From Alphaproteobacteria bacterium (lineage in GTDB: Bacteria; Pseudomonadota; Alphaproteobacteria; TMED109), in NCBI GenBank assembly GCA_022824395.1, contig JAJDZX010000012.1, positions 1 to 35,898 on the forward strand: a DNA stretch of 35,898 nucleotides. The letters run 5' to 3'. The notes under the pieces were generated by a model. That model searched no databases. It worked only from the letters and a program-made list of their open reading frames with translations, and was not told where the DNA came from. The first letter of the stretch is position 1; each line of letters starts with the position of its first letter. Made by a program: the position numbers and the translations under genes. Shown one piece after another: positions 52 to 35,608 of the stretch.

Positions 52-136
52 TTATGGGAACCTGATCCGTACCCAATCCCTTGAGAAACAACAACCGAAG
101 CGGCTCAGGTTCCCATAATCATAAGGTTCTCATAAC
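52..136. repeat. 14-bp perfect inverted repeat plus a third degenerate copy
   Basis: TTATGGGAACCTGA at 52-65 is the exact reverse complement of TCAGGTTCCCATAA at 105-118; the arms extend to 17 of 18 matches. A third copy, AGGTTCTCATAA, starts at 125 with one mismatch, spaced as a direct repeat of the right arm. The 39-nt loop is long for an intrinsic terminator and no T-run follows. Paired inverted arms with an extra direct copy resemble binding sites of a site-specific recombinase or a repressor. Which of these it is cannot be told from the sequence. Confidence 0.7.
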
Positions 137-410
137 CGCCACATCAGCCTGCGCGGCCTGGAGAAAGTGCAGGGCGAGTGAGACCTCGTGTGCCAGGCGT
201 TAAACATCCGGCGGAAGAAGGGTCTGGTCAGCGCGTAGCGGCTGTCGAAGACACGTCGGCGCCGGTCCGGTCCTGACGCTGAACCGCCGTCGACGATCCG
301 GGCGCCAATTGTCCAGAACGCCGCCGTGATCGGCTCGGGCGGCGGCGCTACCAACGGATCGTGCCCTTGCGCATCACGCGGGGTTCGACCGGCATGCTGT
401 CATGGCACAG
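137..410. other. No supported gene
   Basis: Short open frames occur on both strands, but none has a recognisable ribosome binding site, motif or natural-looking composition. I see no RNA gene here. Confidence 0.5.
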
Positions 411-450: not shown

Positions 451-1196
451 TCAGAAGCGGGCCTTGAGGTCAAGCCGGATCGCGTGCTCCGGTTCCGCGT
501 CGCCGCCCGCCGCCTCGCGCCGCGTCGCGTCGACACGCAACTCGAACGCGGAGCCGCCGCCCACGGGGTTCAGCCGCCAGCCGACGCCGTAGTCGCGGCT
601 GCCGTCCGAGAGGCCGATGCCCAGCTCCGGCGTCATCGTGAGCCGGTCGCCGAACGCACCCGTCCCGTAGCCGAACTTCGCCTCGAAGCGGCGCTGATCG
701 AACCCGGCGTCGCTGGCCGCGAGCCTCGTCGGCGCGCCGTTCGTGAACAGCGCGTTCACGCCGCCCACAGCCGAAGCCCCCAGCGTCTGGGTCAGCGTCA
801 GCGACGGCCCGCGGTCCGAACCCGGCGCTGGATCCCAGGCAAACGCGCCCGAGAGGCCGCGCTCGCGGAACCCGTCCGCCTCGTGGGTCAGCAGGCCGCG
901 CGCCTTGAGCTCGGCCGCGATCCCGCTCGCCGGGTCCGACCAGGCGAGCCCGGCGCCGGCCTCGAGGCCAAGCCCGGTCTCGGCGTCGCCGCCGTCGTGG
1001 CGGAGCCCGACCTCCAGCGTGGGCGTCAGCGTCCCGCCGCCCCCGGTCTCGATGCCGCGCCACGTGCCCTCCAGCCCGAGCCGGAGCCGGTTCACATCAG
1101 CGTCCGAAGCCGCGAGCTGCCCGCCGGCGCCGTCGTGCGCGGCGTCGGAGGACATGCGCAGCAACAGCCCGTCGGCCTTGCCTGCAACAAGGACCG
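451..1196 (-). pseudogene. Autotransporter beta-barrel, C-terminal part only
   Basis: About 245 residues of a type V (autotransporter) outer-membrane barrel can be read on the minus strand, ending LDLKARF with the terminal aromatic residue needed for outer-membrane insertion. Alternating amphipathic strands are clear (RLRLGLEG, LTPTLEVGLRHDGGDAETG, FEAKFGYGTGAFG, YGVGWRLNP). Family members normally have a longer barrel preceded by a large passenger. Here coherent sequence stops at about VLVAGKADG (near 1196), so roughly the first half of the barrel is missing. Upstream in the minus frame is only the antisense of plus-strand Calx-beta repeats. No start codon, signal peptide or RBS belongs to it. 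I infer that it is the detached 3' end of the gene whose passenger lies at 1203-3175, left on the opposite strand by a rearrangement. The frame itself carries no internal stops. Confidence 0.8.
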
Positions 1197-1202
1197 CTGC
1201 AG

Positions 1203-2274
1203 CTTCACCTCCGCCGACGCCACCGCCACGACCGGCACCCCCCTGTCGGTGCTGTCGGTGGACTCGCCCAGCGTCCAGGAGGGCGACAGCGGCACGACGC
1301 CGATGACCTTCACCTTCACCCTGTCCCCGGCCAGCACCCAGACGGTGTCGGTAAGCATCACGGCCGGCGCCGGGGGATCTACGGCGACCTTCGGCGTGGA
1401 CTTCGAACAAGTGGATACCGTGCTGACCTTCAACCCGGGCGAGACGAGCAAGACGCTCGTCGTGCCCGTGATCGGCGATACCGACGTGGAGGAAGACGAG
1501 ACTGTCCTCCTTGGGATGGGTCCGCTCGTCAACGCGACGTTCGACTCCAACCTCCAAAGACAAGGCAATTTGGCGTTCGTCGAGGGCACCATCGTCAACG
1601 ACGACGCGCCGCCGGTGCTGTCGGTGAACTCGCCCCGCGTGACGGAGGGCGACAGCGGCACGACGCCGATGACGTTCACCTTCACCCTGTCCCCGGCCAG
1701 CGGCCGGACGGTGACGCTGGACACCACGATTGGCCATTCAAGCCAGACAGCCAGGGAGGACGAGGACTACATCCCCGCGCCCGGTCCGACACTGACGTTC
1801 GCGCCGGGCGAGACGAGCAAGACGGTCACCTTGCAGGTGGTCGGCGACACTGAAATCGAGGACGAGGAGACGGTGCGGCTTGTGCTCTTGCTGACCAACG
1901 CGCAGCTCGCGGCCGACATCATTGCTCATCCTGGCAATCTCAATTTGAGATTTGCAGAAGGCACGATCCTCGACGACGACGGCGAGGACGCCGGTGGCTC
2001 CGATGACGCCGACGGCGCCCGCATCTCCGCGACCGACCCCTCGCCGCTCACGGAAGACAAGCTGAACGGCGCGAAGGTCACCGTGGAGTTCGTGGGCCGG
2101 CCGCACCGGGGCTGGGAGCCCAACCTGCTGGTCAGCCAGTTCACCGCGAGCGGCGTCCCCGGCGTGTCGGTGAGCGCCGTCGAGCGCCTGTCGGACCGCC
2201 GGGCGCGGCTCACGCTGGCCTATGACGACACCGACTTCGACGAGGACCGGACGCTGCACGTCCGCATCCGCGCC
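1203..2274 (+). pseudogene. Autotransporter/adhesin passenger fragment with two Calx-beta domains
   Basis: The plus frame encodes two Calx-beta repeats. The first is about 1240-1605 (SVDSPSVQEGDSG, GETSKTLVV, DEDETV-type acidic turn, GTIVNDD). The second is about 1618-1975 (SVNSPRVTEGDSG, GETSKTVTL, GTILDDD). A further surface-protein module follows from about 2005 (ISATDPSPLTEDKLNGAKVTVEF, ending TLHVRIRA at 2274). Such modules bind calcium and occur in secreted adhesins. The two repeats share about 57 bp almost identical in DNA (1279-1335 and 1645-1701, 366 bp apart, one mismatch seen), so they could recombine. There is no signal peptide or plausible start: upstream is the antisense of the barrel. 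An open frame can be traced back to 361, but that part is a shadow. After 2274 sense coding resumes only if 2275-2715 is turned over. Confidence 0.8.
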
Positions 2275-2715
2275 CTGCAGCGCGACGGTGATCGTGGCGC
2301 CGTTCAGGTTCGCGCCCGTGAGCTCCGCCGGCTCGGTGCCGGCAATGCGGTACTCGAACGCCGGCGGCGTCGCCCGCGCCTCCTCAGAGGGCGGCCCGTC
2401 CGGGGCCTTGTGCCTCGTGGCGATGACCCGGACCGTGACCTCCTTGCCGGGATCCAGGCCGGGGATGGTGTAGCTCGTGCGCGAGCCCCGCGCACTCTTG
2501 AGCTCGCGCCAGCCGCCGTCCGGGCCCTTCCACTGCACCCGGTAGCGGTTGCGGTCCAGGTTCTCCCTTGCGGTCGGCACCGCGTCCCACTTCACGTGAA
2601 CCCGCTGCGGCCCGGGCGTCAGGCGCACGTTCTCCACCTGCGCCGGCGGCGCTTCCACCACCGCCTGCACGCGCGTTGCGGCGGTGATGTGGCCGCCGTA
2701 GTTGTAGGCGATCCC
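2275..2715 (-). other. Exactly inverted 441-bp (147-codon) Fn3 module within the passenger
   Basis: On the minus strand this segment encodes GIAYNYGGH, then a fibronectin type III domain (PPAQVENVRLTPGPQ, KWDAV, RYRVQWKG, SYTIPGLDPGKEVTVRVIAT, ATPPA), then the start of a repeated surface module (YRIAGTEPAELTGANLNGA, ending ITVALQ). Flanking sense sequence is on the plus strand. Reversing exactly 2275-2715 joins VRIRA to GIAYN and VALQ to GEWNA in one frame. The second junction rebuilds a module parallel to the one at about 2005-2274. The flanks are CGCGCC (2269-2274) and GGCGAG (2716-2721), a 5/6 inverted match. In the present orientation the plus frame also stays open, giving an arginine-rich 147-residue stretch with no domain character. 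Confidence 0.8.
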
Positions 2716-3175
2716 GGCGAGTGGAACGCCTTGGCGGGGCCGGGCATCCACGGGTCGCGGCACCGCGTGAAGCTCGAGCTGTCGGGCATCGACACCCACG
2801 TCTGGGTGGAGCGGCTGGAAAGACTCTCGGACTCCGAGGCGCGGGTCGTGCTGGGCCACCGGGGGCCCTTCGTCACGGACCGCGGCGACCTCACGATCAC
2901 CCTCTACGGGGACACCCACAGCTGGAACGAGGACGTCGCCGTCACCTTGCCGGTGAAGGCGCCCGGACAGACCGGCGGCCTGCGCGTCGCGGAGGTCACC
3001 GACAACACGATCACGGTGGCGTGGGACGAGGTCGAGGGCAATGAGGTCTACTACCAGGTGCGCTGGAAGGAGAGCGCATCGGAGGGCGGCTGGCGCGCGA
3101 ACTGGACGCGCCTGTACTGGCACCCGAAGGCCGGCGCCGCTGTTCGGGATGCGGGTATGCGGACGCGGGCGGCCC
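2716..3175 (+). pseudogene. Autotransporter passenger fragment, surface module plus partial Fn3
   Basis: The plus frame resumes sense coding at GEWNALAGPGIHG. It continues through VERLERLSDSEARVVLGH, a close parallel of VERLSDRRARLTLAY in the module ending at 2274, and enters a second fibronectin III domain (GGLRVAEVTDNTITVAWDEV, YYQVRWKES, GGWRANWTRLYW). Coherence fades around GMRTR (about 3170), before the conserved SYTIPGL strand expected next, and a stop follows at 3199-3201. So the domain is truncated, and the rest of the passenger and the barrel are not attached. With the inverted module restored it continues the fragment at 1203-2274. Taken with the barrel at 451-1196, it fits one former gene broken by inversion and deletion. 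Confidence 0.75.
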
Positions 3176-3203: not shown

Positions 3204-3542
3204 TCAGCACGACGTGGCGAGGCGGCCGTCGCAATTGTGGAGAGCGCTGACCCAGTTCATGAACACCTGCACGTCTTGATTCCACTGCAGGGCGTTGTTT
3301 GCCTTGGGGCAGTACACCGAGAATTGGCACTTGTAGTTGTCCGTCACCCACGAGGTGCTCTGGGGGGTGTAGCACGACTGGGAGGCGCTGCTCTTGTCCC
3401 ATTCGTCCGTGCACTGCTGAATCAGGTCCTGAATGGCATCGGCTGCCGGACGGTCGGGCGTCCCGGCCAGCACGAGGGCAAAGGCGATGGCGGAAAGCGC
3501 CGTGCAGACCCGACGTCTCGAGAGAAATGAACGAACCGACAT
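3204..3542 (-). CDS. Small secreted protein with six cysteines
   Basis: This is a 112-residue protein. The chosen ATG at 3540-3542 is preceded by GGGAG about ten bases upstream and gives a classical signal peptide: SVRSFLSRRR, then a hydrophobic core (VCTALSAIAFALVLAG), with cleavage likely near the following PAADA. The mature part of about 80 residues has six cysteines (QQC, SQSC, YKC, VYC, HNC, TSC), which would suit three disulfides, and it is rich in Trp, Asn and Gln. A longer frame runs to 3770, but its extra N-terminus looks non-natural. I do not recognise the family. It could be an exported binding or defence protein of the periplasm or medium; that is a guess from form only. It lies next to the broken autotransporter, reading towards it. 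Confidence 0.7.
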   Translation of the reverse strand: MSVRSFLSRRRVCTALSAIAFALVLAGTPDRPAADAIQDLIQQCTDEWDKSSASQSCYTPQSTSWVTDNYKCQFSVYCPKANNALQWNQDVQVFMNWVSALHNCDGRLATSC

Positions 3543-3944
3543 GAGATGTCTCCCGGCGTGTGAAGGGATCTTTGGTACCGGTCGATGGCAACCGCCGTTG
3601 CTCGCAAGGACCGATGGAATGGGCCAAGTCCGGTCGGCATTGAAATCCTCGATGTCCGCCGCCTCCCTGGCCATGCCGCGCCCGGTCGGAACCGGGGGGA
3701 GATGGCTGGCGCGCCGTGCGCCAGCGGCCGGCCCACGACATTCCCGCGTCGCCGGGGCGGCAGTCGCCATCCTGCCCTATCGTAGAATAACATGTGTTAA
3801 AGTATCGTGTTGATCTCGGATGTATGATGTGTTTTTGATAAATGCTGGCCTGATCTCCCCCGCGGCACGCCGCAGATGGAGAGTGCCCGCTCAGTGAGTC
3901 GTGCAAACTGACCCCTGGTCCTCACGGCAGCCAGCGAGAAGGAA
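3543..3944. promoter_or_regulatory. Divergent intergenic region with an AT-rich core
   Basis: No gene is supported. The sequence at about 3778-3845 is markedly AT-rich compared with its surroundings (AATAACATGTGTTAAAGTAT and neighbouring runs). It sits between the divergent secreted-protein and lipoprotein genes, so it probably holds promoters for one or both. I could not fix a single -35/-10 pair. Confidence 0.4.
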
Positions 3945-4361
3945 ATGCGAGCGATAGCGGCCGGATTCCTAGCCGTGGTCCTGTCGGGCTGTCTGGCCAG
4001 CCAGGGCTCGATGGTCGGCTATGGCGGCTCCGAGGAGGGGGATTTCCGGGCCGACGAGGTACGGGTGTTCCTGCACTGGGACTACACTTGGATACGGGAC
4101 GACGGGCGCCCCAGGATCACGCAGTTCACGCCGGACAGTCTGTTTCTGACCGACAGTATCTGGGGCACCGAGATCGAATCCATCGAGGGGGCGCTCGCCA
4201 ACCGGATCAATGAGGTCAGGAACAGCGAGACCCGCGTGCTGATGGTGCAACTCGTGGACGGCACGGTGCTCCTGGTCGCCCGGGGCAGGGCATTGAGGGC
4301 GCTCCCGCGCGAGCACATCAGGAACGTGTTCTTCGGCTGGGAGGCGGCCGGGCCGATCTGA
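3945..4361 (+). CDS. Putative lipoprotein of unknown function
   Basis: This is a 138-residue protein starting at ATG 3945 behind GAGAAGGA. The N-terminus, MRAIAAGFLAVVLSGCLASQ, is a lipoprotein signal peptide with lipobox LSGC, so the mature protein should begin with a lipidated cysteine at residue 16 and sit in a membrane facing the periplasm. The rest is soluble and acidic, with a segment (FTPDSLFLTDSIWGTEIESIEGAL) and a beta-rich end (RVLMVQLVDGTVLLVARG). I recognise no domain. It stands alone on this strand. Confidence 0.7.
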   Translation: MRAIAAGFLAVVLSGCLASQGSMVGYGGSEEGDFRADEVRVFLHWDYTWIRDDGRPRITQFTPDSLFLTDSIWGTEIESIEGALANRINEVRNSETRVLMVQLVDGTVLLVARGRALRALPREHIRNVFFGWEAAGPI

Positions 4362-4678
4362 TCCACCCCCACCGCAACGGCCCGCGCGGCCTCCGAGGCT
4401 CCCGTAGAAGGACTTGCAGCTCGTGCAGTGAGCCATCCCGGCCCTGGCTCCGTGAGAGAGGCCGTCAACCGGCACAGGAGCAAGGTGAATTGACCAAATG
4501 ACGACAACATGCCCGCGACATGCTGGCGGGAACGCAGGGATCAGGCGGCGCTCCCTGTGGCGCGATGACCGGGGCTGGGCACCCCAAAACCAGACGGCGC
4601 CCGTCCCGGGACCGTTCGCTCCCGCAGCTTCCCCGTCCTGCCTTTTTCCGACTGCGCAATTTCCGTATCGGAGGGATC
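4362..4678. other. No supported gene; leader of the toxin-antitoxin module
   Basis: Overlapping frames here have unnatural compositions. The last bases, CGGAGGGA at 4669-4676, are a good Shine-Dalgarno for the GTG at 4679. TTGACC at about 4490 could be part of a promoter, but no matching -10 is clear. Confidence 0.4.
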
Positions 4679-5001
4679 GTGCGGTTCATTGAGGCATCGA
4701 CATTCACGAGGCAACTGCCACGACTTATCGACGACGACGGCTACGCCGCGCTGCAGGCGTTCCCGAGCGTGCATCCGGAGGCGGGCGACGTGATCCGGGG
4801 CACCGACGCGGCCTCCGCAAGATCCGCTGGGCGATGCCCGGTCGAGGAAAGCGCGGCGGGCGCCGGATCATCTACTACTGGTTCGCGAAGGAGATGCACA
4901 TCTACCTGCTTGCCGTGTACGCCAAGGGCGAGAAGGACGACCTGACCGCCGCCGAGCGCGACGCGTGGCGAAGGGCCGTGGAGGCAATCGACAATGACTG
5001 A
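4679..5001 (+). pseudogene. RelE/HigB-type toxin gene, frameshifted
   Basis: From GTG 4679 (SD CGGAGGGA) the first frame reads VRFIEASTFTRQLPRLIDDD and on to GDVIRGT. Near 4800-4815 coding switches to another frame, GLRKIRWAMPGRGKRGG, then RRIIYYWFAKEMHIYLLAVY and AKGEKDDLTAAERDAWRRA, ending TGA 4999-5001. The joined product of about 106 residues has the layout of RelE-superfamily mRNA interferases: a Leu-Arg-Lys-Ile-Arg strand, a glycine-arginine loop, YYW strands and a terminal helix. The family would read G-T-G-G-L-R-K; here two extra bases sit in GGCACCGACGCGGCC. The unshifted product has only the first third. It is either an inactivated toxin or a sequencing error. Its end overlaps the start of the antitoxin gene by eight bases. 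Confidence 0.75.
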
Positions 5002-5308
5002 ACGCAACATCGCCGCCGAGGTCCTCGAGGGCTTGCGCGAAGTCCGCGAGCACCGTGTCGGCAAGCGCACATTGAAGACCGTGCGCGTCGAACCGCGGAC
5101 CCTCCCCCAGCTCACGCCAGAGGCCATCCGCGGCGTCCGCCACCGCCTGGACGTTTCCAGGGCGGTCTTCGCGCACATGATCCGCGTCCCCGTCCGCACG
5201 GTCGAGCGCTGGGAGCAGGGCCGGTCGACTCCCCCCGAATCGGCCGCGGCCCTCATCCTCATGACGCAGAAGTACCCGGACACGTTCGAGCGCCTAGGCT
5301 CCCTGTAG
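4994..5308 (+). CDS. HigA/NadS-type antitoxin with helix-turn-helix
   Basis: This is a 104-residue protein starting at ATG 4994 inside the end of the toxin frame, the toxin-first order typical of HigBA-like modules. The N-terminal 45 residues (MTERNIAAEVLEGLREVREH) are charged and helical. The C-terminal part is an HTH domain: LTPEAIRGVRHRLDVSRAVFAHMI, then RVPVRTVERWEQGRS as the recognition helix, then PPESAAALILM. It should neutralise the neighbouring toxin and repress its own operon. It is intact, while its toxin carries a frameshift. Confidence 0.8.
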   Translation: MTERNIAAEVLEGLREVREHRVGKRTLKTVRVEPRTLPQLTPEAIRGVRHRLDVSRAVFAHMIRVPVRTVERWEQGRSTPPESAAALILMTQKYPDTFERLGSL

Positions 5309-7760: not shown

Positions 7761-8002
7761 GTCCTGGATGACCTCCAGTCGACGGATACCACCTCACTCT
7801 AGCGTACGTGACGGTGGGAGGGTTCCCCTGTATGGACCTTGAGGCGCCGCCTCTGGTTCAGATGCTGGTCAAGGCGGGGCGCGGGTAGCAGGGGCCAGGG
7901 CGGCGCCGATTGGACGCGGCCGTTCCGGGGGTTCGTTCGGTATCCGGAGGATGGCACACACGCAATCACCCTCCCGCCGACGCAATTCCCAGCGGCTGGC
8001 CA

Positions 8003-33533: not shown

Positions 33534-33609
33534 TCCGCGGTAGCTCAGTTGGTAGAGCAATCGGCTGTTAACCGATTGGTCGCAGGTTCGAGTCCTGCCC
33601 GCGGAGCCA
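33534..33609 (+). tRNA. tRNA-Asn (GUU), likely attachment site of an integrated element
   Basis: Cloverleaf: acceptor TCCGCGG/CCGCGGA, D-arm GCTCAGTTGGTAGAGC, anticodon loop CTGTTAA (GTT), T-arm GCAGGTTCGAGTCCTGC, discriminator G and encoded CCA. TATCTT about ten bases upstream could be its -10. An integrase gene starts 157 bp downstream in the same orientation, the classic arrangement of tRNA-integrated elements. Confidence 0.97.
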
Positions 33610-33689
33610 ATCCCCCTTCCCGACCGTTCCCTGATATCCCCATAAACCTCTTATTTCAAGCGGGTTTAAGGGGAATTTACGGGCTGACT

Positions 33690-33758
33690 GTTCCCACCCG
33701 ATCCACTACGTTCCCACACATTGATGTGGGAACGGATGTGGGAACGGATGTGGGAACG
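33690..33758. repeat. GTGGGAAC repeats upstream of the integrase gene
   Basis: Three perfect tandem copies of GATGTGGGAACG lie at 33723-33758. Two inverted copies of the core, GTTCCCAC, lie at 33690-33697 and 33710-33717. The second with the first direct copy makes a 10-bp inverted repeat, CGTTCCCACA/TGTGGGAACG. Such spaced copies between an attachment site and an integrase gene suit integrase arm-type or excisionase binding sites, or an operator. Confidence 0.7.
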
Positions 33759-33766
33759 CCCCAGTA

Positions 33767-34939
33767 ATGAGGACGCTGACCGAGGCCAGGGTGAGGGCCA
33801 TTTCCGAGCCGGGGCGCTATCGGGCCGCCCCCACCCTTTTTCTCTTCTGCAAGACATCCGGGGCGAAGTCCTGGGTGCAACGGGTGGTCGTGAACGGCAA
33901 GCGGCTGGAACTCGGCCTGGGGCCGTGGCCGGTGGTGACGCTGGCGAAGGCCCGACGGCGCGCTCACGAGAATCTCGTCCTGATCGAGGATGGCGGCGAC
34001 CCACTGGCGCAGAAGCGAAAGACGTCGGCACCCACCTTTCGGGAAGCGGCGCAGATCGTCTACGAGGCCAACCTGAAACGATGGAAGGCAGGACGCCACA
34101 CCGACCGGTGGTTGCAGGTCGTCGAGAAGTACGCCTGTCCCGTGTTCGGTGACAAGCCCGTCAACCAACTGGGCCTCGAGGACGTGCTCTCCGTCCTGGT
34201 TCCGATATGGACCAGCAAGCCCGAGACGGCGCGGAAGCTGCGGCAGCGGCTGCGGATCATTCTCGACTGGGCTGTGGCGCACGGACACGTCGAGCAGAAC
34301 TTCGCGGCCGATCCAATCCGCGGGGCCCTGCCGTCCATGCCTTCCGTCAAGGCGCACCACCGAACCCTGCACTATTCGGAAATCGGGCAGGCGATCGTGG
34401 CCGTGGACAATTCCGGGGCGAGCATGTCGGCCAAACTGCTGTGGCGGTTCTTGGTGCTGACGGCCGTGCGGGGTGGCGAAGCGAGGCAGGCTACCTGGGC
34501 CGAGATCGATTTTGACCAAAAACTGTGGCGCATTCCCGGCGAGCGCATGAAGTCCGGGAAGCCGCACGTGGTTCCCCTCTCGGATGCAGCGGCGAAAGTG
34601 CTGCGGGAAGCCGAATCATTGCGCGAGGACGGCGATCTTGTATTCCCCGGCACACGGAAGGGCCGTCCGCTGACTGACAGCACGCTCTCCAAGACCTTGC
34701 GGCTCGCAGGCGTCGGGATGGTTCCGCACGGTGCGCGCGCCATGTTCAGGACATGGGCCGACGAACGGACGAATGCGAGGCACGACGTGAAGGAGCAGGC
34801 ACTGGCGCACGCGGTGGGTAGCACGGTGGAGCGGAGCTACGCCAGATCCTCTCTGCTCGCACAACGGCGCGTACTCGTGCAGCAATGGGCGGATCACGTG
34901 ACCGGGACGAATTCAAAGGTGCTTCAGCTTCGCGCCTGA
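33767..34939 (+). CDS. P4-type tyrosine recombinase/integrase
   Basis: This 390-residue integrase should recombine the tRNA-Asn site with an element copy. The N-terminal arm-binding domain has the DUF4102-type pattern (LFLFCKTSGAKSWVQRVVVN, LGLGPWPVVTLAKARRRAHE). A core-binding domain follows (APTFREAAQIVYEANLKRWK). The catalytic domain starts with the first arginine in VLTAVRGGEARQATW. It continues through KSGKPHVVPLSD, the HxxR box in VPHGARAMFRTWADE, and the final His and Tyr in LAHAVGSTVERSYARS. All expected catalytic residues appear present. It starts just after the GTGGGAAC repeats, reading away from the tRNA. Confidence 0.93.
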   Translation: MRTLTEARVRAISEPGRYRAAPTLFLFCKTSGAKSWVQRVVVNGKRLELGLGPWPVVTLAKARRRAHENLVLIEDGGDPLAQKRKTSAPTFREAAQIVYEANLKRWKAGRHTDRWLQVVEKYACPVFGDKPVNQLGLEDVLSVLVPIWTSKPETARKLRQRLRIILDWAVAHGHVEQNFAADPIRGALPSMPSVKAHHRTLHYSEIGQAIVAVDNSGASMSAKLLWRFLVLTAVRGGEARQATWAEIDFDQKLWRIPGERMKSGKPHVVPLSDAAAKVLREAESLREDGDLVFPGTRKGRPLTDSTLSKTLRLAGVGMVPHGARAMFRTWADERTNARHDVKEQALAHAVGSTVERSYARSSLLAQRRVLVQQWADHVTGTNSKVLQLRA

Positions 34940-34969
34940 TGTCTTGAGCTCAGCGTGCGGGCATAAGCA

Positions 34970-35608
34970 GTGATGGTCGAGCCAAATGAGATCGTGAACG
35001 AGGCGATCGTGAATGCGGTGGCGCATCGCGACTATACGAATAACGGCAGCGTCCAGGTCATGCTGTTCTCCGATCGACTGGAAATCCGAAACCCCGGCCG
35101 ACTTCCACCTGCACTCACACCTGGCATGTCGCGCGTGGCACACGGCTCGGTGCCGCGCACTCCGCTGTTGGCGGAATCACTGTACCTTGCGGAGTACATC
35201 GAACGCATGGGAACAGGGACTCTGGACATGATCCGTCGATGCGCCGAAGCCGGCCTGCGGGAGCCCGGTTTCGCTGTTAAGGACGGTTTCGTGACAGTAC
35301 TTTGGCGGCCTGGTGCTGCGGTTCCCGAGGGACCTACCCCCGAAGTTACCCCCGAAGTTACCCCCGAAGTCGCAAGAATGTTGTCCGTGGTTCAGGGGGA
35401 GATGAGCCGCAAGGAGATCCAGGAGGCATTGGGGCTGGCGGACGAAAAACACTTCCGAGCGCGCTACCAGCAGCCCGCCATTGCGCACGGACTACTTGAA
35501 ATGACCATCCCTTCGAAGCCTCGTAGCAAACAGCAGAAATACCGACTCACAGACAAGGGGCGCGCCGCAATAGTCGACAGGACCAGATCGGACCGATCAG
35601 AGCATTAG
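34970..35608 (+). pseudogene. RecG-like/AlbA_2-type ATPase-fold protein, N-terminally truncated
   Basis: These 212 residues match the C-terminal half of a family often labelled ATP-dependent DNA helicase RecG-like or divergent AAA-4/HATPase_c_4 regulator. EIVNEAIVNAVAHRDYTNNG and LFSDRLEIRNPGRLP are the HATPase_c_4 core, followed by YLAEYIERMGTGTLDMIRRC. The linker has a triple P-E-V-T repeat encoded by 12-bp units. Then comes a winged-helix end (MSRKEIQEALGLADEKHFRA, KYRLTDKGRAAI). Full-length members begin with an AlbA_2 (Schlafen-like) domain of about 200 residues that is absent here. The first codon is an unconvincing GTG at 34970. It is probably a remnant within the integrated element. 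Confidence 0.65.

Follow-up and report, generated by a model that had tools for sequence, protein, structure and literature searches.

An inverted Fn3 module in an incomplete Fn3/Calx-beta surface-protein gene copy of an alphaproteobacterium, probably a one-off rearrangement

Close to one end of an alphaproteobacterial contig, an Fn3 module is encoded on the opposite strand to the coding sequence on either side of it, raising the question of whether a modular surface protein exchanges one of its domains by reversible DNA inversion, or whether a gene copy was rearranged once. The window analysed is the whole of contig C115 (35,898 bp) from a genome of 133 contigs and 92.85% completeness, and the left contig end is 2.3 kb away from the inversion site. 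The left part of the window is divided into the following features:

1–141, no strand: contig end identical to part of contig C106, relic-like, with 52–140 recurring on C31 and C33
454–1179, minus: C-terminal autotransporter-type anchor, last 242 codons, with the first ~172 residues missing (91% identity to G001:C40)
1180–2268, plus: left passenger, running from an Fn3 domain tail (ACNKDRCSFTS) through a pair of Calx-beta domains into a repeat module as far as VRI (Pfam, matches to P0050 and P0070)
2269–2718, minus: flipped piece of 150 codons, which closes one repeat module, spans a complete Fn3 domain and opens the repeat module that follows (Pfam fn3, homologues, codon usage, tblastn)
2719–3135 (end approximate), plus: right passenger, completing the second repeat module (EWNALAG...) and running through the first half of the Fn3 domain that follows (P0070 match, alignment)

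Strand and limits of the inverted module

The original prediction placed the module in sense on the minus strand and its flanks on the plus strand, and both Pfam and codon usage bear this out. The minus strand is open across 2275–2715 and matches Pfam fn3 (E 7.2e-9), while both flanks are coding on plus. The codon-usage score of 2269–2718 read on plus is −77, whereas 804 overlapping sense segments of 150 codons from three family genes all score −2.6 or higher (mean +84.5). Codon-usage models gave 199.9 with no inversion, 354.7 with the limits adopted here and 353.1 with those first predicted, and the best-fitting minus segment on codon usage alone was 2257–2715. The flip is therefore evident from codon usage, but the choice between the two sets of limits is left undecided by it and is made by homologues.

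Ten homologous proteins (P0002–P0005, P0050, P0066, P0070, P0082, P0093 and P0106) were examined, drawn from 18 proteins retrieved with the left flank, the module in its originally predicted limits and the right flank as query, and from the 120 listed of 1530 matches to a 645-residue passenger query. On this comparison we read the assembled sequence as carrying an inversion with limits at 2269–2718 (450 bp, 150 codons), which restores the joints VRI-AGIAYN on the left and LQGA-EWNA on the right. The closest homologue, P0082 (1941 aa, 78% identity over module and flanks), has IRI AGIAYN and LQGA EWEL at these positions, with both joints free of gaps. Across seven aligned homologues, the corrected query is gap-free at the left joint in six (P0070 has one gap) and at the right joint in all seven. 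With the limits first proposed, an exact flip of 441 bp at 2275–2715, the left joint has one residue too many relative to P0002 and P0004 and the right joint is one residue short relative to P0002–P0005. Of that proposal the inversion itself and the in-frame restoration of both ends are retained, as is its clean, two-ended character, the joints being gap-free against homologues once the limits are corrected; the exact limits and the joint residues VRIRA-GIAYN and VALQ-GEWNA are replaced. Limits of 2267–2720 would leave the product unchanged because TC/GA is common to both ends, so that the homologues pin the inversion to within 2 bp. CGCGCC and GGCGAG had also been named as a flanking inverted match, but with these limits CGCGCC (2269–2274) falls within the flipped piece and so does not form half of a flanking repeat.

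The module is in direct orientation in all ten homologues, with contiguous flanks; a search for direct copies in related genomes had been proposed as a check at the outset. P0002–P0005 carry it direct at identities of 62, 53, 43 and 44%, and P0050 and P0070 span 100% of the 645 passenger residues at 56 and 55% and both end in the anchor domain. A further public protein, P0020 (1038 aa), was retrieved by searching with the plus frame and aligns to the antisense of the right flank (residues 193–316), of the module (316–471) and of the left flank (473–794). It was considered as an independent flipped copy and rejected, as this colinear order is that of a further direct gene read antisense; P0020 is a predicted protein that represents a surface-protein gene read on the wrong strand. 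Arg-rich antisense frames of this kind can mislead annotation in GC-rich genomes.

The wider search covered several sequence sets. No near-identical copy in either orientation was present among the 7985–7997 candidates scored per protein search, a weak absence as candidates were restricted to lengths of about 358–1139, 520–1655 and 938–2985 aa. The module alone found no relative in public genome contigs, and viral contigs gave no match. A four-row alignment searched against named genomes matched one locus, on a Dehalococcoidia MAG contig (best segment 43%), where query residues 1–356 lie on one strand as the search reports it. Among 385 genomes of the class, matches at E ≤ 1e-8 occurred in the same genome and in G310 only. 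The literature listings covered include no entry that names this Fn3/Calx-beta family with an inversion.

A gene copy broken on both sides of the module

The locus encodes the Fn3 and Calx-beta passenger of an Fn3/Calx-beta surface protein, with some 650 codons on plus, Calx-beta being matched by Pfam in two stretches of 1198–2274 (E 1.3e-19). The left passenger corresponds to P0050 from residue 267 on and to P0070 residues 459–687; in blastp the passenger reaches back to residue 337 of P0070 and 267 of P0050, inside an Fn3 domain. At the other end, 2716–3150 gives a weak fn3 match (E 6e-4) below the curated cut-off. As judged from these alignments, the passenger fragment starts within one Fn3 domain and stops within another near 3135. 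The plus frame upstream of it, where an N-terminal signal would be sought, is the antisense of the anchor. Within the right passenger end, 51 bases (3089–3139) match C109:102882–102932 at 81%.

In intact relatives, the repeat modules and the Fn3 and Calx-beta domains that make up the passenger share one strand and one frame with the C-terminal anchor. Here, no complete autotransporter domain was found in frame with the passenger, the anchor being limited to 242 codons on the opposite strand. The DNA match of the anchor piece stops at 1180 or 1187. The whole 416-aa domain of G001:C40 matches PF03797 at residues 41–240 (E 3.7e-10), while the window piece at 454–1179 alone gives no PF03797 match; lacking the first ~172 residues, it lacks most, not all, of the PF03797 stretch. 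P0070 maps to the window (tblastn) as five pieces of alternating strand: residues 1800–2065 at 454–1242 minus, 460–600 at 1216–1611 plus, 459–687 at 1579–2265 plus, 691–840 at 2263–2709 minus and 844–968 at 2752–3129 plus. Its residues 1–458 and 1132–1443 have no match anywhere in the genome, and other parts of 969–1799 match only other, weaker genes of the genome. The beginning of the gene and some 830–850 residues between passenger and anchor are thus absent from the locus.

This arrangement is exceptional among relatives. Seven congeneric genomes contain 57 anchor matches and 49 Calx-beta matches, and in 17 of the 18 cases in which an anchor match has a Calx-beta match within 5 kb (these matches being pieces, two of which adjoin on G001:C52) the two share a strand, the sole exception being the window. 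The passenger, module and anchor frames contain no stop codon, and the anchor piece shows dN/dS of 0.21 against G001:C40 (dS 0.285) and 0.42 against the relic on G001:C55 (dS 0.163, the lowest value); any loss of function would therefore be recent. Short anchor-domain fragments were also found on contigs C16, C55, C66, C118, C41, C124 and C125 of the window's own genome, with an internal stop in those on C118 and C16, relics of this gene family being numerous there.

The corresponding locus in the congener G001, on its contig C55, holds both edges of the window locus (406–969 at 91%, 1037–1187 at 87% and 3872–4401 at 91%), with no passenger between them; its anchor is a shortened relic with internal deletions and the neighbour gene is present. 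Between passenger and right edge, the window encodes on minus (3204–3593) a small Cys-containing protein that is predicted to be secreted. It has ten matches including itself in two of the seven congeneric genomes, mostly ORFs of 124–147 aa (one of 222). As it shares 30% identity with part of an 824-aa anchor protein on G001:C34, it was considered as the lost start of the anchor gene, a candidate rejected because its relatives are mostly short ORFs.

The window and contig C106 start with exactly the same 141 bases, which suggests an assembler working with 141-base words. Window 52–140 recurs on C33 (98%) and 52–236 on C31 (89%), and this contig-end stretch may be an insertion-sequence-like relic. 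Positions 234–292 resemble DNA of C33 and 245–300 DNA of G001:C4, both of which also hold relatives of the small gene at 3204–3593, so that the left contig end (1–300) is a patchwork. Further into the window, a short protein at 4994–5308 has weak matches to MqsA antitoxin and to HTH, both below curated cut-offs, and sits behind another short frame; the two (4680–5308) are possibly a toxin-antitoxin pair. At the right end, 33534–35608 holds a tRNA-Asn followed by a tyrosine integrase (33767–34939, Phage_integrase E 4.7e-20) and a RecG-C/Fic-like_C protein (34970–35608); it probably marks where a genomic island begins or ends.

Alternative explanations

Shufflons, Hin/Gin-type switches and intragenic invertons are kinds of phase-variable DNA inversion, and a domain-flipping switch of antigenic or phase variation had been offered as one explanation of the locus. 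A recombinase would then flip the module to and fro, exchanging the Fn3 domain for another stretch, a reading to which we give very little credence. The plus frame is indeed open in both orientations, as predicted, but this is rejected as evidence for a switch because 77% of 150-codon windows in genes (5633/7330), and 79% in family genes (3183/4016), are open on the antisense strand. The genome does contain five matches to the Resolvase family, and a recombinase could act from a distance, but these matches sit on other contigs (C105, C8, C29, C63 and C39), and within the window the search for a recombinase yielded only the tRNA-linked tyrosine integrase 31 kb away. The corrected ends have only TC/GA in common, with no inverted repeat above chance: the longest shared run is 4 bp, which 90% of random pairs reach, and 27 of 60 bases match when the breakpoints are compared as an inverted repeat (mean 22.6; 7% of random pairs reach 27). 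A 79-nt inverted repeat of 71% identity (2019–2097/2272–2350), formed by two homologous module starts (ISATDP.. and YRIAGTEP..) that now face each other, was considered as the driver and rejected, as it would flip 2098–2271 instead. The proposed reversibility finds no counterpart in a second orientation from the same species among the candidates scored, nor was a flipped copy seen among the homologues examined (7985–7997 candidates scored, length-limited). No complete gene on which a switch could act was found: the passenger is encoded on one strand and the anchor on the other. Contrary to the idea of a switch that leaves the protein untruncated, the gene is already disrupted on either side of the module, so that flipping the module would not swap domains in a functional protein. 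The locus resembles invertons (PMC11892184) in having a short inverted stretch within a coding region. It differs from them in its lack of a flanking inverted repeat, a nearby recombinase, an observed second orientation and an intact gene.

That the joints stem from chimeric molecules or from misassembly near the contig end, the true gene being ordinary, is unlikely, even with several joints inside 2 kb and the contig end close by. Most chimeras formed during amplification are inverted sequences with deletions in between, and more than 70% are joined via 2–21 nt (PMC1855051). The joint at 1179/1180 fits this type; the 450-bp flip, which is reciprocal with no residue gained or lost at either end, is unlike inversions with deletion. 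Comparison of 1190–3150 with its own genome returned, besides itself, two internal matches at 74% and the 51-bp match at 81% on C109, so that no long repeat there explains the joints, and a search of the genome for the missing gene parts gave no close match at another site. In a variant that overlaps with our main reading, and that is possible though clearly not favoured, the passenger would derive from a different family gene and have been inserted in reverse, with only the anchor relic being ancestral. This variant would account for the passenger-free G001:C55, with its anchor relic and neighbour gene, and for the module's best congener match of 43% (same genome, C91) as opposed to 91% for the anchor. 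Against it, P0070 unites a passenger of the same order (55%) with an anchor 89% identical to that of the window, and a common origin of passenger and anchor is therefore equally likely.

A probable two-step rearrangement

We consider 2269–2718 to be probably a one-off (fossil) inversion inside an incomplete, scrambled and probably nonfunctional Fn3/Calx-beta gene copy. A single fossil inversion was the other option raised originally, and it agrees with the ten direct homologues and the colinear antisense reading of P0020. The union of passenger and anchor in one protein in P0050 and P0070, compared with their opposite strands here, further favours this reading; the stop-free frames, the dN/dS values, the breakpoint match, the contig-end site and the gene parts perhaps missing from a 93% complete assembly count against it. 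In such a scenario, the passenger block would have ended up inverted beside the anchor, with both its ends lost; a smaller inversion may then have turned 2269–2718 back, by end joining or template switching via 2 bp. The flipped module is the only passenger piece with the orientation of the anchor.

The locus is closest to Fn3/Calx-beta autotransporter proteins (PF00041, PF03160, PF03797), with the same modules in the same order and identities of 78% to P0082 (module and flanks), 55–56% to P0050 and P0070 (whole passenger) and up to 91% for the anchor (G001:C40), but its parts lie on alternating strands, and it lacks the start and middle of the gene as well as part of the anchor. Rearrangement of pseudogenes by illegitimate recombination is a known phenomenon, and the locus resembles such pseudogenes in its incomplete domains, in having several breakpoints within 2 kb and joints that share 2 bp, and in its decayed sister locus and the putative insertion-sequence-like relic nearby. 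It is unlike them in its stop-free frames, which would make the break recent. That giant surface-protein genes diversify by repeat-independent inversion of whole domains, and that the locus is a silent fragment caught mid-event, seems highly improbable.

A striking domain flip on one contig can thus be placed through homologues and the wider, already broken locus. The inversion, most likely fossil, is ordinary in kind and mildly instructive, and its importance would be much greater only if both orientations occurred in reads. If the joints are real, the locus would represent a well-defined and recent rearrangement in two steps, its ends sharing no more than 2 bp, and an example of decay in large repeat-module surface genes.
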